A DNA stretch of 64,000 nucleotides from Pseudobdellovibrionaceae bacterium (GCA_013359135.1 JABWCN010000015.1:1-64000), one strand, 5' to 3'; positions 8,409-36,812 are shown, counted from the first letter of the stretch. Made by a program: numbers and translations. Notes: a model not told the origin generated them from the sequence alone.

Positions 8409-9623
8409 TTAAGAATCACTCACGCGTTTAAGAACAAATGGATAACTAACTTTAACGTTGACTCCACCCTGTGGCTGTGGAAACTTCCAGGACTTTAGTT
8501 TTTCACGAATACAGCCCTCAACTTGAGGATGAGCTAAGCTTGAGCTTCCCACCTGAGCAGTCGCGACATCACCTCTGGGGTTAATTATAAACTTCATGGA
8601 AACACGGCCATTGAGATTAGGCTTTTGCTGAAGGGCTGATTCATAACAAAATCGAACTTCACTAAGGTGACGAGCAATAACGGCCGCAATTGCGTTTCTA
8701 TCTAAGCCTCCTTCTGAAAAAGCTTCTTCATAAAGGGGCGTAATAGATGAACCGTAATTTCCAGTGATAGTCATTTTTCCATAACCAGCTTGTCCTCCAC
8801 CTTTTCCCTTGGTTCCATAGCCTCCGGCACCCTCAGCTTTATTACCTACACCTAAAGGTGCTGCAAATAAACCTTTAGCATAGTTAGTTGTTTGCACTCC
8901 ACCACTACCTAGAGAGCCACCCATCCCAATTCCTTTTGATGTGTTAATTCGATTCAGGTTAAGACCACCATTCTGGTTAGATTTTTTTAAACTTCCCAGC
9001 ACTCCAAGAGCGCCAAGTTGACTGATTTGAATAGTTTTTCTTGGAGAAGGTGAAGTTCTAAGCGCAATAGCTGTTTTGATTTTCTTTTTTATTTGAATTT
9101 TATTTACTCTCTTATTGGGAAGAGAGACTGTTTTGTTTGAAGCTATAACGGTTGGAATTTTCTCGATTTGCTTTCTGTCCATCACAGTGATAACTTCAAG
9201 CTCTTTAACTTTTGTTACCACAGGCACAAAAAATTTTCTATAAACCATATCGACACTGAATATTAATAAAGCCAAGCCTATAGCTATAGTCATCGTTTGT
9301 TTTAATATTTTTTGAAATCTTCCTGGATCATCTTCTGGTAGGTTTACATTTTCAAGGATATCTACTGATTCAAATACAAGAGTTAATTCGTTGTTGGTAA
9401 AATCAAGAGGGATAGACTTTTTATTTTGAATGTCGGCTTTATTAATTGATTTTAAAAGATGGTAATTAATATCAATTTGTTCCAACTCTGCAAGGTTATC
9501 AGTTACTTCTATTCTCTTAGTTTTAGGTATGAAAATAAAGTGAATCATTTCAGCTTCAGATTCAATAGATCTGACTGTTTCCCCTTGACGATTAATTAAG
9601 TATAATATTTTTTTCGCTGTCAT
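8409..9623 (-). CDS. TonB-like transducer with AgmX/PglI-type C-terminal domain (GltG/GltJ-like)
   Basis: 404 residues: a cytoplasmic N-terminal domain (1-105), one transmembrane helix (about 112-132, MTIAIGLALLIFSVDMVY), a Gly-rich periplasmic linker (about 210-285), and a C-terminal domain (about 300-404) with the AgmX/PglI signature: RHLSEVRFCYESALQQKP, NGRVSMKFIINPRG, then GCIREKLKSWKFP. This layout is that of Myxococcus GltG and GltJ, which couple the AglRQS proton motor to periplasmic parts. The N-terminal domain is not an obvious FHA or zinc-ribbon/GYF domain, unlike the Myxococcus proteins. It is the strongest marker that this operon is Glt-like. Confidence 0.85.
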   Translation of the reverse strand: MTAKKILYLINRQGETVRSIESEAEMIHFIFIPKTKRIEVTDNLAELEQIDINYHLLKSINKADIQNKKSIPLDFTNNELTLVFESVDILENVNLPEDDPGRFQKILKQTMTIAIGLALLIFSVDMVYRKFFVPVVTKVKELEVITVMDRKQIEKIPTVIASNKTVSLPNKRVNKIQIKKKIKTAIALRTSPSPRKTIQISQLGALGVLGSLKKSNQNGGLNLNRINTSKGIGMGGSLGSGGVQTTNYAKGLFAAPLGVGNKAEGAGGYGTKGKGGGQAGYGKMTITGNYGSSITPLYEEAFSEGGLDRNAIAAVIARHLSEVRFCYESALQQKPNLNGRVSMKFIINPRGDVATAQVGSSSLAHPQVEGCIREKLKSWKFPQPQGGVNVKVSYPFVLKRVSDS

Positions 9624-9627
9624 GGTC

Positions 9628-9942
9628 TTACTTTAACTCCTTCATTTTTTTTTCACGGTCTTTAAAGTTTTTGCGCATGCCTATCAGTGACTCTAATGAT
9701 TTATCATCCTCTACAACAGTTAAAGCTTCTAACGGCTTTTGATAAGTGCCACCAACCAGATGGTCGTTGAAATCAACTTGAGTAGAAAGTTTTTTATCTT
9801 TATTAAGCGTTGATTTATTTGCAGTTGAAATTGGAGTCTTCTTTACTGTTTTTGATGTGGAAGTTGATAAATTAACGGCTAGAGCTTTTGGTTGATAACC
9901 AAAAATACAAGCGATCATTAAAAGTAATAAAAGTTTAATCAT
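9628..9942 (-). CDS. Small exported protein of the motility-like operon
   Basis: 104 residues: a signal peptide (ends KALA, residue ~22), then a Ser/Thr/Lys-rich low-complexity stretch and a charged tail (MRKNFKDREKKMKELK) that may be helical. Its start overlaps the stop of the TPR gene (9939-9942), so it is translationally coupled. No family recognised. Possibly a small adaptor between the TPR protein and the transducer encoded next, but that rests on position alone. Confidence 0.55.
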   Translation of the reverse strand: MIKLLLLLMIACIFGYQPKALAVNLSTSTSKTVKKTPISTANKSTLNKDKKLSTQVDFNDHLVGGTYQKPLEALTVVEDDKSLESLIGMRKNFKDREKKMKELK

Positions 9943-12914
9943 TTGTATTCCCCCATAGTCGTACGGTTATCTAAGTAAGCAAGCAGAGTGCCATTACCAA
10001 GTTTGCGAGTAATAACCTGGTATTTCTCTAACTCTTTGAAATTAAAAGGATCTTTTTTTAAGTTCTCTTCAATGTTTTTTGCTTCAGACAGCAAATGACG
10101 TCTCTCCTGTGAATATTTTTTAAAAGGATCGTCTGAAAATTTAACGATTCTAGCAGAGAGAGATAGGTTAGTTATCACGATTTGACTTAGCTTGTGGCCT
10201 GGCACATTAACTTGTTCAGAGGATTGATAAAGATCTTTAAAAAGATCTTTATCAATAGCTTCTTGCCATAAGGCTAGAGCTTTTTTGTTGATTTCTATGG
10301 CCTTATTTTGAAATGGTTTCACTTGAATTTCTAATTGCTTTTTGTATTCAGTTTTTTCAGATTCATTTAATGTACTAGGAATTGGAAGCTTTACTATATC
10401 ATTTGCAAGTTTTGAATTTTCAAAGGAAAGAAATGAAAGTGCAATTAAACTTAGGCTTAAATTATTGTGTTTGAGTGCTTGGTTGGTTTTAATTTCGAAT
10501 TTATTAAGTAAAGCTACTTTTTTTAAAATCGAAGAATTTAATTTTTTCCCAAGATTTGAAGCTAATTTAACACTTCTTATTTGATTGTGAGTCTTAGCTA
10601 TTTCTTTAAGGTCAAGATTAGCTTTTATAAGTAGACTCGCTTGAGACTTTTTGAATTTAGTGTCGTTTATAAAGTATTTTAAAAGTGAGTCATCTTTGGT
10701 TTTTTCATAAGTGAAAAGAATAGCATTACCAAAGAGTTCGGTATTCTCACGAAGATCTTTTTTGAATTTAAAAAGATCTTTTGTGGGATTGTCACCTTTG
10801 GTTATTATTTGATATATAGCCGTTTGTCTTTTTTGTTTATTTTTACCAAGCTCAATATATTTCTGAAAGTACCAGAGTGACTTTTTTGACAATTTAATAT
10901 CAGAGTTTTCTGCGTTAGCTAATTGGCTTAAAATAGCCGCTTTAAAAACAAAATCAGCATTGTTTTGATTTTCTGTTTTTAAATGAAAATCTAATGCTTT
11001 GTCCCACTCTAAAGTTGTTTCTTTAACCCAACAAAGATAAGCATACATTTCTGACTTTTCCTTTGATGTTAACGAAACTTGTCTTAAGAAATCTTCAGCA
11101 GCTTGTATCATATAATTTGAATTTTTAATTTTAGTGGCTAATACTTGTCGATTTTTTAAAATCAACTTCTTATCATTGGCTGGCCATAGAGAGTAATCAT
11201 AAAGAGATAATTTTTGCCATAGTTTTTCAAGCATTGTTTCACTAACGAAATGATCATTTATAATCGAGGAAGAATGGTTAATAATTGCTTTTCGCCAAAT
11301 TAATAAAAAGTCATTTTTTCTATTTGGTATTAGATTCGCATAATTAAGCGATTTTTTCTCTAAAAGTTCATTGTCTTTTTTTTGTATAAAAATCTCAGTA
11401 TTTAAATCCGCTGCTTTGCTTTTAAGATCAATGGGAGCTTTAGTAGCCAAAATAATTTCCTCAAAAAGTTCAACAGCTTCAGATTTTTGGTCGTACTCAT
11501 AGTACCAATGTGCAAGTTGGTACTTTATAAAGTAAAGCTGATCTTTCTTTAATGAATGATTAAGATATTTTTGATAGGATTGTAATTTATTACTTTTGTC
11601 ATTTTCTCGTTCAGCACTTTCAATAGTACCAACTAAAGCTATTTCAAGTTTTTCTGAGTTAGTAGTTTGGATTAGAATATCAACAGCGCGGTTAAATGAG
11701 TTAAAGGCCTGAGAGTATTTTTTTTGTTGTAGTGATTTCTCGGCTGCCCAAAGGCTAAAGTCAGCATCTCTAAAGGCGTCAGCATATAAATCAAAGGATG
11801 TGATAAGTTCAAAACTTGGTTTTTTTTCTTCCGCTTTGAACCATTCGGTGAGTATGAATTTAAGTTTTTTTTGTGCTTCTTCGCAGGTAATGTTGCTTTT
11901 ACATGAATTTGTTTTTAAAAATTCAACGAGTTGCGAAATTTCTTTTGTTAATTGTTTTTTTTGATTTAAATCGTAAAGGATTTTAGTTGTTTTGATTGAT
12001 TTTTCAATTTTATCTTCAAACGATAGCTCTTTTTTTTCTAAATAAGACCAAACCAAAAGAGAACTTTGTTTTTTTGATGTTCTTTCAAGTTCTGTAGCTA
12101 AAAAAATAAGATTTGTTTTTTTTGTATTTTCAGGACTTAAAATAGATAATAATTCAATGTCACTTTGTTGGATATCATTGGCAGCCATAAAAAGCGCCAA
12201 GTCGTGGGAAATCATTTCGATTAGAGCTGTGTCTTGCTGTTGAGTCAAAGGATGAGATAGAATTTTCTTATTTCTTAGTAAAGAAATAAGCTGTTGCTCT
12301 GCTTTTTTGGTTTGACCTAGATTAAAATCACACCAAGCGATTTTGTAAAGTGAGTAAGCTTTCTTAGGATTTTGCGGTAGTTTACTGGCTTTTTCATAAT
12401 TGTCTTTAGCAAAGACCAAAGTGCCTTTAAAAAAAGCAGTGTCTGCTAGTTGTATATACGATAGTGCCAAAGTTTCTTGTTTAAAAAAAGACTTATTATT
12501 AATAATAAATTTTAGTTTTTGTTGAGCTTTATCTTCTTTTGAAGTTAACAAATATAAATTAATAACTTGTAAATAAATACGATCTCTTTCAGAAGTAAAT
12601 AGAGAGGAAAGTTGTTTCTCATATATCTGCAGAGCTTTTTCTCTGTCGGATTGAATTGCTGACTTAAATAAAATTTCACCTTTCCCTTCATTTTCAATAG
12701 AAAGTAGACGAGCTCTTTCAGAGTATAAATCGGCTAATCTAAGCTCAATTTTTTTTGATGAAACCATTCCATCGCTAGTGTTTGATGACTTACTAATAGC
12801 TTCCAGTTTTCCAATTAATTGATTGTGGGTGGTAAGCGATAGTTTCTCAGCTGTAACTGTTATTGTTAGAGACGAGATAACTAATAAAATAAGTATCATT
12901 TTGAAGTGTATCAT
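9939..12914 (-). CDS. Giant exported TPR-repeat protein (991 aa)
   Basis: A signal peptide (about 1-22, ending VTA) is followed by almost continuous helical repeats with TPR character: ALSYIQLADTAFFKGTLVFA, AYSLYKIAWCDFNLGQTKKA and FIKYQLAHWYYEYDQKSEAV. The large periplasmic or surface TPR scaffold fits the role of the Glt TPR proteins. It follows the ExbD-like gene by 16 nt and has a strong AAGGAGA site. Odd point: a perfect 16-bp inverted repeat with a 2-nt centre (10223-10256) falls inside the coding sequence near the C terminus, encoding KDLFKDLYQ. Confidence 0.75.
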   Translation of the reverse strand: MIHFKMILILLVISSLTITVTAEKLSLTTHNQLIGKLEAISKSSNTSDGMVSSKKIELRLADLYSERARLLSIENEGKGEILFKSAIQSDREKALQIYEKQLSSLFTSERDRIYLQVINLYLLTSKEDKAQQKLKFIINNKSFFKQETLALSYIQLADTAFFKGTLVFAKDNYEKASKLPQNPKKAYSLYKIAWCDFNLGQTKKAEQQLISLLRNKKILSHPLTQQQDTALIEMISHDLALFMAANDIQQSDIELLSILSPENTKKTNLIFLATELERTSKKQSSLLVWSYLEKKELSFEDKIEKSIKTTKILYDLNQKKQLTKEISQLVEFLKTNSCKSNITCEEAQKKLKFILTEWFKAEEKKPSFELITSFDLYADAFRDADFSLWAAEKSLQQKKYSQAFNSFNRAVDILIQTTNSEKLEIALVGTIESAERENDKSNKLQSYQKYLNHSLKKDQLYFIKYQLAHWYYEYDQKSEAVELFEEIILATKAPIDLKSKAADLNTEIFIQKKDNELLEKKSLNYANLIPNRKNDFLLIWRKAIINHSSSIINDHFVSETMLEKLWQKLSLYDYSLWPANDKKLILKNRQVLATKIKNSNYMIQAAEDFLRQVSLTSKEKSEMYAYLCWVKETTLEWDKALDFHLKTENQNNADFVFKAAILSQLANAENSDIKLSKKSLWYFQKYIELGKNKQKRQTAIYQIITKGDNPTKDLFKFKKDLRENTELFGNAILFTYEKTKDDSLLKYFINDTKFKKSQASLLIKANLDLKEIAKTHNQIRSVKLASNLGKKLNSSILKKVALLNKFEIKTNQALKHNNLSLSLIALSFLSFENSKLANDIVKLPIPSTLNESEKTEYKKQLEIQVKPFQNKAIEINKKALALWQEAIDKDLFKDLYQSSEQVNVPGHKLSQIVITNLSLSARIVKFSDDPFKKYSQERRHLLSEAKNIEENLKKDPFNFKELEKYQVITRKLGNGTLLAYLDNRTTMGEYK

Positions 12915-31472: not shown

Positions 31473-31731
31473 TATCGTTATAAACCTTTAAAGGGTTTGT
31501 TGAATGACTAAGTCCTAAAAAAGAAAAAGAGTTAAGCTCAAGCTTTAAAATGTCCTACATCTGTCTTAAAATTTAACAATTATAACTGCTATTAGTTTTT
31601 TTTATTAAAAGCTATGTTCTAAGTATTTGAAGTTATAAGACAAAAAATAAAAATAAATTTTCTCAAGAAAAGTTTCTATGGCATGACTAGTGCTATCTAT
31701 TTATTAAAATTCCTTGTGGAGGTTTTTTTCT

Positions 31732-34700
31732 ATGCCAAGAAGAATTGTCTTTATACTTCTTAGTTTATTGATTCATGTTGTGGTTTTTGCTGAGGAAATT
31801 CTAGAGTATAGTCTAGGCGAAAAGTATAAACTTATTCTTGAAGAAACACGAGGTGAACAGGATCGTTTAGAGATTAGTTTATTAAATAAAGCCACTCATC
31901 AAAAGTATCCTATCTCTGGTGCTTTTTTGAATCAAATGACAGGCCCAAGAATACAAGTACCTAAGGGAGACATTAAAAGTCATGATTTGGCTGCGGCCCT
32001 TTTTGCTTATGATCATCCTGAGCTTCAAGAGTTATTTAAAGCACAAAAGTTGTTTGTTGTTGCGATTCCTCAAGAAAAAACTCATCAGTTATTAATAGTT
32101 CCTATAGAGAGTGTTATAAATGAAATTGAAAATAAATTGCCAGCGAGTGCTTATCTTCTTGAAAATCCAAGAAACAAAAATTTTCAAAAAACTACTTTTT
32201 TCCTTAAAGAAATTAACTTAGGAACTGAAACAACGACAAGTTCTATGCCTGGTGCAATGAAAGGACTTTTATTTACGTCGGCTTATTTTAATCCAGAGCA
32301 AGATAGATTTGCACATTCTAGTTTAACAATTTCAAGAGTTATCAATGGATCTACCAAAACAGCTATAATTACAGAAGGATTTATTCCAGTAGGTGAGAAC
32401 TCTGTATATACCGTTTCTAAAAAAACTAATCCTATTTCAAATGAGTTATTAATTAACATTACAAATCAGACTTCAGGCGTAGTGTCTGATAAAACTGTTT
32501 CTTTTTCAAACCTTAGATGGAAAGATTTTGGGGAGTTGACAAACCCTCAAAACTTGGTGAATGCAGAGTTTAAGTTGTCGAATTATACTATTTCAAAAGA
32601 ACCAAAAAAGCCAACTAATACAGATTCTACAGAGCCTAAGGCTGCAAAAGTATCTTCATCAACCCAGGTAGTTCTTTATGATTCTGCTAAAAGTTACTTA
32701 AATATTTCAAGTGAACATATGCTAGGAAAATCTGAAGCTGAGACTGACGCTTCGATAGAAAAAGAGTGGGTCCCTGCTAAGTGGCCTCGAGGAATTGATG
32801 AGGAAAATGAGTTTAATAAAAAGTTAGTAAAAGGAATATCCAGAGTGTTAAAGGGGCAACCGGAAGTGTTGGATTTTGTAAAGCGTATGGAGAAAGGGTT
32901 TCAAAGCTCTGGACGGATTTATAAAGATCCAAACATTTCCTGGTTAGCGGGAATGCCAGGAGTGGGTAAAGACACTTTTGTTGAAACTTACATATTAGTT
33001 AAGCATCAATTACTATACCCAGGGAAAGAGATTGATATTGAGAAGCATATCTTCAGGCTTCCAATAGTTAAAACTGACCACGATTTATGGGACTTAGTAG
33101 GTTCAAGAAAGGGACACGTAGGAGAGGGCGAATTAACTGCATTTATAAAATGGATAGTTCTGCACTCAGGTGGTAAGTATAAAATTGTCAAAGAGAATGC
33201 GGATAAAGGAAAATCTGCTAAAGAAAGAGTTGAGCTTAATAGTGAATGGAAACCAGGTATAGTTTTGCCTGGTTATCATAGTCCAGAGGAAGGAGTTCTT
33301 TTTGTTAATGAATTCCATGACTGGGGACGTATGGGTATAAATTTGTTTTTAAAAGAGGCCCTTGAAAAGGGCATCTTTCCAGTTTCAGGAGGATCAGGTC
33401 TTGGAAAAATTCAGGTTCCTATCAATACAGTTATTGCTTCAAATCACGGAATTAGTAAAATAAGCTCCTTAGATATTACTGGAAAAAGAGTTGGGCCTGA
33501 ACTTAGTTATGAGCAGTTAATGGAAAATTGGCAAAGACACTCTCAAAATTTAGAAGATCTAATTGAAGAGATAAAAAGCCCCACTCCTGCAAATAAAGAA
33601 GGTGGGCTTTCTCCTGAGATGGTAACTCGCATCCCAAAATCTAATTTTATTTTGCTGCGTCCACTTAATAAAGAAGCACTATTATCAATTTCTAGTTTTC
33701 AATTAAGTCAGTTAGAAAAAAAGTTTCAGAGAAAGAAACTAAACGGTTATCCAAGCTTTAACTTTAAATTTGATAATTCAGTAGTTGAATTTTTGGCAGT
33801 TTACGGACAGTCTCCAGAGGAAAGTTCTAGATTAATAAAAGACAAAGTTAACTCATTAATTGAAGCAACTTTGAGCGATGCCATTTCAAATAAAAAAATA
33901 ACCGATGAAAAACAAAATTACTTAATCTCTATTCGAAAAAATAAAGATGGGACTCATTCTTTGTTATTGAAAGATAAGCATTCAGAACAAAGTCTATTTG
34001 TTCAACTTACTAAAAAAGATAAGTACAAACAACCTATCTCTGATCAGGAACTAGAGGGGATTAACCAGTTGGAAGGAAAGTTAAATCTAAGGGTTCGTGG
34101 AGTATCGCATATTGTAAAAAAAATGGTCTCAGATATCAGAACGGCAAGAAATTCCGATGGTAGTGGAAAAGCTATGATTTTTGGTTTCTTTGGACTTTCT
34201 TCAACAGGAAAAACAGAACTAGGACGAGCTTTACATCAAGAGCTTTTTAAAACGGATACAGAACCTTTTAAAATTGATTTTAATCAAGTCAAATCACCTT
34301 ACGATTTAAAAGAATTATTGTTTGGATCAAAAAACTTAAACTCAGTAAGTGGTGAAGTTTATCGATCTCCTTTTATGAATCGGTATGACCAGTCAGATGG
34401 CAAGCTAGTTATAATATTCGATGAGATGACTAATGCTTCAACTGAAATTTTAAATATTCTTTATGATTTTTTAGATAAATCAAAAGTCGAGGGGTTTTCT
34501 GATAACAAAGCTAGATCTATGGCGAATGTAAATGTGATTATAAACGGTAACTTAGGAGAAAATTGGTACAATGCTATCAGAGGTATGGATATACCAGAAA
34601 CAGAACAGTACGAAGCTGCAAGAAAAATTTATCATTCATCCATAGCTAATGAAAATTTTAAAAGAGCTACTTTGTTGGAGAAATTCACAGAGGCTTTTGT

Positions 34701-36084
34701 AAACCGAGTAGGTTTAGATCGATTTTACTTTTTTGGTCCCCATGAGTACAAAACAATCAGAGAGCTGATTCAAGATAAGCTCCTTGTATCTCTTAAGGAG
34801 CTTTCTGCTCCTAAGGAAGGTGTTAGGACTTGGGATGTAAGATTCGCTACTATTAAGGATTATGAACAGACTGTTTTTGCAATTGAAAAGTATGGTTTTC
34901 GCCTTTGGTCCCAAGGTAGATCAGTAAATACTTTTATTAATGATCAGTTTAAAAAGGAAATTCAGGACTTACTTTTAAAATATCACTTGCCTAATGGCGC
35001 AAAAATATTGATTAAAAAAGTTAAGGATAAAGTTGTCTCAAATCCTAAAGGATTTGAGGAACCTTCGACTCAAGTTAATTTCGAGCTTGAATTTAAAAAT
35101 CGGGATAATAAGTCGGTGAGCTTGCCGCTGTCATTAAGAGGAAAATTTATTGAAAAACCAGTGGCCGAATCAGAAAAAGCTTTTATCCTAACGGCTTTTC
35201 ATGAGGCAGCTCATTCTTTTTTGAATGTTGCTTTGTTGGGGGATAAGATACGGCCAGTATCAGTTAAAATAACTCCAGGGGTTACTATGATTAACAATAA
35301 ATGGATTAGATATGGAGGGGTAGCAGAAAGTGAAAACATCGAACGGTTAGAGTACACAAGAGAGGCTGTTGTTGCTCGATTAGCAGTTTTGCTTGGAGGT
35401 GGAGTTGCTGAAGGATTAGCCACGAAAAATAAAGTGGTTACTGCAGGACATAGCAATGATTTAGAACGGGTGACAGAGTTTGCTAGAAAGGCTGTAGTTC
35501 ATCTTGGAGTGGGAAACTGGAAAGGAGTTACCCAATCTTCTGAAAAACCGTTTGAAGAATATTTTATAGGATTATCTGAAGATCAAAAGCTAATAGTAAC
35601 TCAAGAGGTTGATAAATTAATTGAAGAAGCTCGTGGTGTGGCTTCAAATATGTTAATGGCACACTTTGACTCGATTATTATTCCCCTTGCTAAAAATCTT
35701 TCTGAACAAGCAGAGTTGGATGAAAAGGATCTAAAAAAGTTTTATAGTCAGAAATCATCGTCGCTTATTTCATTTTATAACCAAGAGGCAATTAATAAAG
35801 GAGTTTTGAGTTATAAAGATCAAATTTCAAAAAGTTCACCGATATCGAACTATTTAGCGATGAGAGATTTTGAGTTTCATGATTTCATAAAAGCTTCTGA
35901 CTTTAAGGTTTTTAACCTAGAGAAGCGTTTAGAGCAAAAGAGAAGGAAGGATCTTAAAGATGTTGATCTTTCTTTAGGTCATCAATTCGTTGAAATGATG
36001 AGTAATTTTAAGGAAGCTCTTTTAGCTAAATATTCTGGATCGAAAGCACATTCCAGGACTTGCTTAAAGTATTATAACAGGTGA
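31732..36084 (+). CDS. Giant protein: signal peptide, two ClpB-like AAA+ modules and an FtsH-like M41 metallopeptidase domain
   Basis: 1,450 residues from the ATG at 31732, 9 nt after GGAGG; an upstream TTG is less likely. Order: signal peptide or anchor (1-20, MPRRIVFILLSLLIHVVVFA); an unrecognised domain (20-360); AAA+ 1 with Walker A WLAGMPGVGKDTF (about 405), the ClpB-like VGSRKGHVGEGEL and a Walker B variant VLFVNEFHD (about 521); AAA+ 2 with GFFGLSSTGKTELGRAL (about 820) and KLVIIFDEMTNAS (about 890), both related to ClpB D2; then a zinc peptidase, FHEAAHSFL (His1157-Glu-x2-His) with the FtsH-type third-ligand block TAGHSNDLERVTEFARKA (Asp about 1242). AAA+ and M41 occur together in FtsH, but FtsH has one different AAA module. 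ATP is absent from the periplasm, so export would be odd unless it acts in a prey cell or stays anchored with its body inside. Domain calls are firm; location and role are inferred. Confidence 0.88.
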   Translation: MPRRIVFILLSLLIHVVVFAEEILEYSLGEKYKLILEETRGEQDRLEISLLNKATHQKYPISGAFLNQMTGPRIQVPKGDIKSHDLAAALFAYDHPELQELFKAQKLFVVAIPQEKTHQLLIVPIESVINEIENKLPASAYLLENPRNKNFQKTTFFLKEINLGTETTTSSMPGAMKGLLFTSAYFNPEQDRFAHSSLTISRVINGSTKTAIITEGFIPVGENSVYTVSKKTNPISNELLINITNQTSGVVSDKTVSFSNLRWKDFGELTNPQNLVNAEFKLSNYTISKEPKKPTNTDSTEPKAAKVSSSTQVVLYDSAKSYLNISSEHMLGKSEAETDASIEKEWVPAKWPRGIDEENEFNKKLVKGISRVLKGQPEVLDFVKRMEKGFQSSGRIYKDPNISWLAGMPGVGKDTFVETYILVKHQLLYPGKEIDIEKHIFRLPIVKTDHDLWDLVGSRKGHVGEGELTAFIKWIVLHSGGKYKIVKENADKGKSAKERVELNSEWKPGIVLPGYHSPEEGVLFVNEFHDWGRMGINLFLKEALEKGIFPVSGGSGLGKIQVPINTVIASNHGISKISSLDITGKRVGPELSYEQLMENWQRHSQNLEDLIEEIKSPTPANKEGGLSPEMVTRIPKSNFILLRPLNKEALLSISSFQLSQLEKKFQRKKLNGYPSFNFKFDNSVVEFLAVYGQSPEESSRLIKDKVNSLIEATLSDAISNKKITDEKQNYLISIRKNKDGTHSLLLKDKHSEQSLFVQLTKKDKYKQPISDQELEGINQLEGKLNLRVRGVSHIVKKMVSDIRTARNSDGSGKAMIFGFFGLSSTGKTELGRALHQELFKTDTEPFKIDFNQVKSPYDLKELLFGSKNLNSVSGEVYRSPFMNRYDQSDGKLVIIFDEMTNASTEILNILYDFLDKSKVEGFSDNKARSMANVNVIINGNLGENWYNAIRGMDIPETEQYEAARKIYHSSIANENFKRATLLEKFTEAFVNRVGLDRFYFFGPHEYKTIRELIQDKLLVSLKELSAPKEGVRTWDVRFATIKDYEQTVFAIEKYGFRLWSQGRSVNTFINDQFKKEIQDLLLKYHLPNGAKILIKKVKDKVVSNPKGFEEPSTQVNFELEFKNRDNKSVSLPLSLRGKFIEKPVAESEKAFILTAFHEAAHSFLNVALLGDKIRPVSVKITPGVTMINNKWIRYGGVAESENIERLEYTREAVVARLAVLLGGGVAEGLATKNKVVTAGHSNDLERVTEFARKAVVHLGVGNWKGVTQSSEKPFEEYFIGLSEDQKLIVTQEVDKLIEEARGVASNMLMAHFDSIIIPLAKNLSEQAELDEKDLKKFYSQKSSSLISFYNQEAINKGVLSYKDQISKSSPISNYLAMRDFEFHDFIKASDFKVFNLEKRLEQKRRKDLKDVDLSLGHQFVEMMSNFKEALLAKYSGSKAHSRTCLKYYNR

Positions 36085-36209: not shown

Positions 36210-36812
36210 ATGAAATTTAAAGCACTGCTTATATTTACTTTATCAGTTTTCTTTTTACAGATCTCCTGTAGTAACACCCAGACAAATCCTATGTTTGGAG
36301 ATTACAAATCAGCTTGCTCAGATTCTAGTATTTCAAGTTCTTCTTCATCTACTGACACTACATCTGGCTCTTCTTCAAGTGCTGTTGTTAACTGTGATAG
36401 TTCTACAAATATTCCTATGCCTTCGATAGAGCGTTATGAGAACTCAGATGTGATTGCGACAAAGCTAGATACCATGGTCGAACTGAGTGGAAATTGTGAT
36501 ATTAAGCAAAATTCAGACAGCGAAATTGCTGTGTCTATTACCCCTCAGGGTTATTCGTCTGTTAAACTGTCTTCAGGTTATGTTCCTATTATTGGTATTA
36601 CCACCTATGGTTCGACTCAACAGCAACCTGTTGCTCGGTGTGAAAAAGGCAAATGGGCTATCGCCATCAATGCTTGTGTTAATGGTTTACAAGCTGTTGG
36701 TGTACACCAAATTGATTTAGTTTTGAGTGGTGTAGATAGTAGTGGTAGAAAAGTTTCTATCTCTGATGGGGCTATTGCAATCAATTTAAATCGAACAGAA
36801 TCTTGCTTATAA
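36210..36812 (+). CDS. Serine-rich lipoprotein after the giant AAA+/M41 gene
   Basis: 200 residues: a lipoprotein signal (lipobox LQISC at about residue 20), a Ser-rich linker (SISSSSSSTDTTSGSSSS), and a beta-rich domain with a few cysteines (CDSS, SGNCDIK, VARCEKGKW, INACVNG, ESCL), possibly two or three disulfides. No family recognised. It follows the AAA+/M41 gene by 125 nt on the same strand, so a shared transcript is possible, but the gap is long. Probably exposed at the outer membrane. Confidence 0.72.
   Translation: MKFKALLIFTLSVFFLQISCSNTQTNPMFGDYKSACSDSSISSSSSSTDTTSGSSSSAVVNCDSSTNIPMPSIERYENSDVIATKLDTMVELSGNCDIKQNSDSEIAVSITPQGYSSVKLSSGYVPIIGITTYGSTQQQPVARCEKGKWAIAINACVNGLQAVGVHQIDLVLSGVDSSGRKVSISDGAIAINLNRTESCL

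Follow-up and report, generated by a model that had tools for sequence, protein, structure and literature searches.

We show here that a single open reading frame in the window (the whole 64,000-nucleotide stretch of Pseudobdellovibrionaceae DNA that was analysed) joins two ClpB-D2-type AAA modules to a C-terminal Peptidase_M41 domain behind a signal-peptide-like N-terminus, and that it belongs to a real family, so far undescribed. The usual list of bacterial AAA+ proteases comprises FtsH, Lon, Clp, HslUV and the Mpa-proteasome. The best reading of the family, as a self-contained exported unfoldase-protease, adds to these a sixth and distinct architecture, in which Clp-class motors are covalently linked to an M41 peptidase and which is conserved phylum-wide. 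Such an AAA-M41 fusion is represented by none of the curated models of Pfam, NCBIfam and PADLOC, and we found no description of it in the open-access literature, in keeping with the original prediction that this is not a standard family.

Architecture of the fusion protein and its family

The proposal of a signal-peptide-bearing chain linking two Clp-type AAA modules to M41 is confirmed by the agreement of Pfam profiles, fold and N-terminus (Table 1). All three profiles singled out for the check score over their curated cut-offs: Peptidase_M41 (PF01434) at residues 1152-1336 (1.6e-16, 61 bits against 29.9), AAA_2 at 817-992 (1.4e-8, 35.4 bits against 27) and, marginally, ClpB_D2-small at 645-727 (1.6e-4, 22.1 against 21.9 bits). 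In this protein, Pfam does not match the first AAA core, for which AlphaFold and Foldseek give the fold of a Clp D2 module and whose motifs are conserved. There is also a weak match to the Torsin HMM. The NCBIfam models for ClpB (TIGR03346, 62.8 bits where 1232 are required) and FtsH (TIGR01241, 61 bits where 600 are required) both remain below threshold, and sequence matches in the PDB are to Hsp104/ClpB for residues 767-958 and to FtsH for 1142-1336. An AlphaFold model of residues 770-1450, made with 25 family rows, has a pLDDT of 88 and a pTM of 0.84, with low confidence in the position of the Cys tail; mitochondrial CLPB/Skd3 and ClpC rank top among its Foldseek matches, and apo-FtsH and AFG3L2 align over ~595 columns, covering AAA plus M41, at high rmsd. 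In the model of residues 21-770, the first AAA module is confident and matches ClpC, ClpB and Skd3, and residues 21-344 have no reliable prediction (pLDDT ~30).

Table 1. Coordinates of the fusion gene and its features in the window.
Feature	Position	Strand	Basis or remark
Fusion gene	31732..36084	+	ORF, 1450 aa + stop; intact; homologues across phylum
GGAGG, ribosome-binding-site-like	31718..31722	+	9 nt 5' of ATG 31732; read in sequence
Signal peptide (predicted), residues 1-20 (MPRRIVFILLSLLIHVVVFA, then EE)	31732..31791	+	Hydropathy and charge; same N-terminus type in nearly all 5'-complete Bdellovibrionota members
Lineage-specific N-terminal region, residues 21-345	31792..32766	+	Pfam: nothing; pLDDT ~30; no second transmembrane segment (no hydrophobic peak)
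AAA module 1 (Clp D2-type), residues 346-770, including ClpB_D2-small 645-727	32767..34041	+	Pfam, fold
Walker A, module 1, GMPGVGKD 407-414	32950..32973	+	D replaces T/S, as in most of subfamily A
Walker B, module 1, VLFVNE, ends N526-E527	33292..33312	+	Family conservation
AAA module 2 (Clp D2-type, AAA_2), residues 771-1101	34042..35034	+	Pfam, NCBIfam, PDB sequence matches, AlphaFold/Foldseek
Walker A, module 2, GLSSTGKT 821-828	34192..34215	+	Family conservation
Walker B, module 2, IIFDE, ends E898 (~894-898)	34408..34425	+	Family conservation
Arg finger, module 2, R992	34705..34707	+	Invariant
Peptidase_M41 domain, residues 1152-1336	35185..35739	+	Pfam, AlphaFold
HEAAH zinc motif, residues 1157-1161	35200..35214	+	Family conservation
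Asp1243, predicted third zinc ligand (GHSNDLER)	35458..35460	+	Family conservation
Cys1444, sole cysteine of the protein, 7 residues from the C-terminus (TCLKYYNR)	36061..36063	+	Sequence

With FtsH and the m-AAA and i-AAA proteases, the fusion proteins share a C-terminal M41 domain with HExxH and a third-ligand Asp, and an AAA motor in the same chain; FtsH, however, has a single AAA of the classic type and two N-terminal transmembrane segments, whereas the fusion proteins have two to three modules of the Clp D2 type, by HMM and fold, and one signal-peptide segment. Their D2-type modules with D2-small, and the D1-D2-like tandem of the B-long members, recall ClpB, ClpC and ClpA (Hsp100), but the fusion proteins carry the protease in-chain, with no ClpP partner implied, are predicted to be exported and, in subfamily A, have two D2-type modules in tandem. 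Skd3/mitochondrial CLPB, the best Foldseek match of the second AAA module, and the torsins likewise have a Clp D2-type AAA outside the main cytosol, but lack a protease domain and sit in eukaryotic compartments that contain ATP. In torsins, too, Walker A is altered. The family is thus neither FtsH, from which motor class, transmembrane segments and score separate it, nor ClpB, from which it is set apart by score and by the added protease. Since an ordinary FtsH is present elsewhere in the same genome, the fusion gene is an extra gene.

Homologues were sought among relatives, the class, the phylum and a set of named genomes, giving 73 fusion ORFs (63 once duplicate loci were removed, a few of them fragments) and ~60 distinct homologues from Bdellovibrionota plus Rhodoblastus and Roseiarcus. 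The window protein alone as query gave no match in the named genomes; those obtained there with an alignment of the B subfamily include Bdellovibrio sp. 28-41-41, Bdellovibrionaceae UBA2351, Rhodoblastus acidophilus DSM 137 and Roseiarcus fermentans DSM 24875. Identity across the family is 17-45%. The M41 tree has a clade A of 26 rows, including the window protein (support 99/99), and a remaining, weakly supported clade B of 35 rows, in many of which M41 is preceded by three AAA modules, first a D1-D2 pair resembling that of ClpA/B and then another D2.

As the original prediction would have it, the HEAAH and Walker motifs are conserved in the homologues; the conserved columns include the Walker A Gly and Lys, the module-2 Walker B Glu, the sensor-1 Asn, the Arg finger, HExxH and the third-ligand Asp (~60 homologues). 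Both of the anticipated Walker A/B sets are present, but the second Walker B had to be placed at ~894-898, and the first motor is non-canonical: nearly all members of subfamily A have GKD for GKT/S and NE for DE in module 1, which, to judge from these motifs, may hydrolyse no ATP. Degenerate sites occur in a few members (L047, L213 and L216), and L213 is the single one in which HExxH has been lost, with REAGR instead.

Predicted export and a model for the enzyme

Signal peptides were scored by a permissive hydropathy rule, charge and cleavage pattern rather than by SignalP. The rule found a signal-peptide-like start in 44/47 5'-complete fusion members, the exceptions being L189, which is signal-like by eye, and the versions from Rhodoblastus and Roseiarcus, two phototroph-group alphaproteobacteria, which have no signal peptide. 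As it also calls many ordinary ORFs positive, we rest the case for export on the combination of conservation, charge and Cys content. Among the 44 members called, charge averages +1.98 ahead of the hydrophobic segment and -0.48 behind it, the charge rule gives an N-in, C-out orientation in 36/44, and the N-terminal segment has cleavage-like ends; in none of the 47 does a further hydrophobic segment precede the first Walker A. By hydropathy, charge and cleavage pattern, the proteins thus look Sec-exported, with an n/h/c-region signal peptide and no further transmembrane segments. The bodies of the proteins contain only 34 Cys in ~67,500 residues (0.05%), compared to ~1% in cytosolic ORFs of the sampled genomes. 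Signal peptide, charge bias and low Cys content are independent lines that support export of the Bdellovibrionota members. Export is not essential to the chemistry of the family, since the Rhodoblastus and Roseiarcus versions lack the signal peptide.

These data bear directly on the idea, part of the original prediction, of an FtsH-like inner-membrane protease, in which the N-terminal segment would be an uncleaved anchor and AAA-M41 would face the cytoplasm. The homology of the M41 domain to that of FtsH, the availability of ATP on the cytoplasmic side and the presumably cytoplasmic location of the signal-less alphaproteobacterial versions are all in its favour, but FtsH requires two segments to keep its AAA inside, and a single segment, positive before and acidic after, predicts a C-terminal domain on the outside. 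Together with the cleavage-like ends and the near absence of Cys, this makes a cytoplasm-facing anchor improbable.

The reading that we favour, with moderate confidence, is a self-contained AAA+ protease in which a Clp-type double ring would feed an M41 chamber, the enzyme being exported and using ATP outside its own cytoplasm. We infer, by analogy with Clp and FtsH, that six copies would form a double-ring motor, with altered nucleotide chemistry in the AAA1 ring and canonical motifs in the AAA2 ring; substrates would be unfolded by this motor and passed on to a zinc-protease chamber to which each chain contributes its own M41 domain. Because the Sec-type signal peptide of the Bdellovibrionota members comes without a second membrane segment, we predict that the enzyme is exported from the cytoplasm in its entirety. 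ATP is not expected in the periplasm, but is expected inside another cell; if the enzyme uses ATP, it should work beyond the cytoplasm of its producer, the most plausible site being the interior of a cell preyed on or associated with. The predicted export makes it testable whether a bacterium uses an ATP-driven unfoldase outside its cytoplasm and, if true, there would be an ATP-driven secreted protease in Bdellovibrionota.

The lack of ATP in the periplasm also lends itself to another explanation, namely a periplasmic or surface protein whose AAA rings, as a scaffold or by nucleotide binding, would regulate the M41 peptidase without ATP-driven unfolding. The non-canonical GKD and NE of motor 1 and the degenerate sites mentioned above would fit with such a role. 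Nevertheless, module 2 retains its Walker A Lys, Walker B Glu, sensor Asn and Arg finger in both clades, which implies selection for hydrolysis, and we consider non-unfolding rings unlikely.

C-terminal cysteine motif and operon partners

The cysteines of the family, a feature absent from the original prediction, are concentrated at the C-terminus. A Cys lies within 30 residues of the end in 59 of the 60 3'-complete members, and at 31 in the remaining one, giving a C-terminal Cys density 65x that of the body. The motif reads [S]-C-x-x-L-[LF], and the operon partners of the B-long members have the same CxxL[LF] right behind their own signal peptides; in L053, the protease ends in NRCADLLSGKL and the partner starts with NRCADLLSGRD, and partner motifs elsewhere include SLCRDLF, NQCVDLF and LNCADLL. 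The motif is more than an export signal, since it is also present in the Rhodoblastus version, which lacks a signal peptide. The invariant Cys probably serves for tethering, modification or auto-regulation, and its motif, common to protease and operon partners, points to a putative tagging or tethering mechanism. In small samples, some further exported proteins from carriers also had the motif and no convincing CxxL[LF] exported protein was found in a Bdellovibrio-like control; when whole genomes were scanned with a DNA pattern for the Cys tag, the signal did not exceed that of the control.

The operon partners have signal peptides and an FGE/C-type-lectin-like C-terminal domain, whose nearest relative is Treponema variable protein 1, and some show weak ankyrin similarity. 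In G300 (L207), protease and partner form one ORF with no such Cys at the junction: L207:4742-11731 encodes, in a single 2330-aa frame, three AAA modules, M41 and an NTase-like/FGE partner; upstream, an in-frame stop separates the signal peptide from the remainder. The Ser-rich lipoprotein at 36210-36812, put forward as a partner of the window protein, was dropped as a candidate, its adjoining position not being conserved at homologues.

Several other exported-looking proteins were noted in these genomes. Three unrelated ones with one or two Cys and no Pfam match (L228:3839-5038, minus strand; L232:12038-13246, plus strand; L241:9485-10135, plus strand) have CxxLF at the C-terminus or directly behind the signal peptide. 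L188:6401-9601 (minus strand), which adjoins two fusion-protease genes, encodes a seemingly exported protein whose ATP-grasp domain is circularly permuted (PF14403, 7e-19), a further ATP-dependent enzyme that bears a signal peptide. At L188:13650-15989 (plus strand), 3' of a fusion protease, are two neighbouring, mutually similar signal-peptide proteins with amidoligase-like motifs by eye (GGGHxNxD) and no Pfam match. Another type of Clp-like AAA that looks exported lies ~4 kb from a subfamily A gene (L039:15699-18524, minus strand), a 942-aa ORF with a signal peptide and AAA_2 (PF07724, 1.2e-14) and without HExxH.

Distribution, descent and the question of prey

A large genus, g6, which by inference we read as Bdellovibrio, has no fusion family member in its ~25 sampled genomes, many of them closed; matches there cover the ClpB part of the query only. 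This distribution bears on the possibility of a predation effector, exported into the prey cytoplasm to degrade prey proteins on prey ATP. The combination of a signal peptide with ATP-requiring domains, the effector-like features of some partners (the FGE/C-type-lectin fold and weak ankyrin similarity) and the presence of a mevalonate gene, as in predators, would all agree with it. The mevalonate gene proved not to discriminate as a marker of predation, being absent from only two of the genomes tested, and two free-living alphaproteobacteria also carry the fusion protease. With the Bdellovibrio-like genus lacking the family and the phototroph versions lacking a signal peptide, prey delivery, as originally suggested, is not established and finds no support as a general rule; a dedicated predation effector is in our view doubtful. 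The broader form of the favoured reading, that Bdellovibrionota possess an exported system for ATP-dependent unfolding and proteolysis, with Cys-tagged partners, acting outside the producer's cytoplasm and probably inside other cells, is put forward tentatively.

As to descent, trpS sits near several subfamily A genes, which suggests vertical inheritance. The Rhodoblastus and Roseiarcus rows cluster with G274 in the M41 tree (support 99/98), and a C-terminal stretch, recognised by eye, is common to the Rhodoblastus upstream gene and the G274 downstream gene, suggesting transfer of a gene pair. A mobile or viral origin of the fusion gene was rejected, there being no plasmid match and ten viral-contig matches that span Clp-like AAA positions only. 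A defence system was also set aside: PADLOC has no match for the window protein and, for the two other members tested, lists AAA-containing models only. In Rhodoblastus acidophilus, the fusion protease lies in a tightly spaced operon (L083:1993-4866 and 8719-10203) with genes for a 958-aa protein and an RPE65-type carotenoid oxygenase, all of whose products are without signal peptides.
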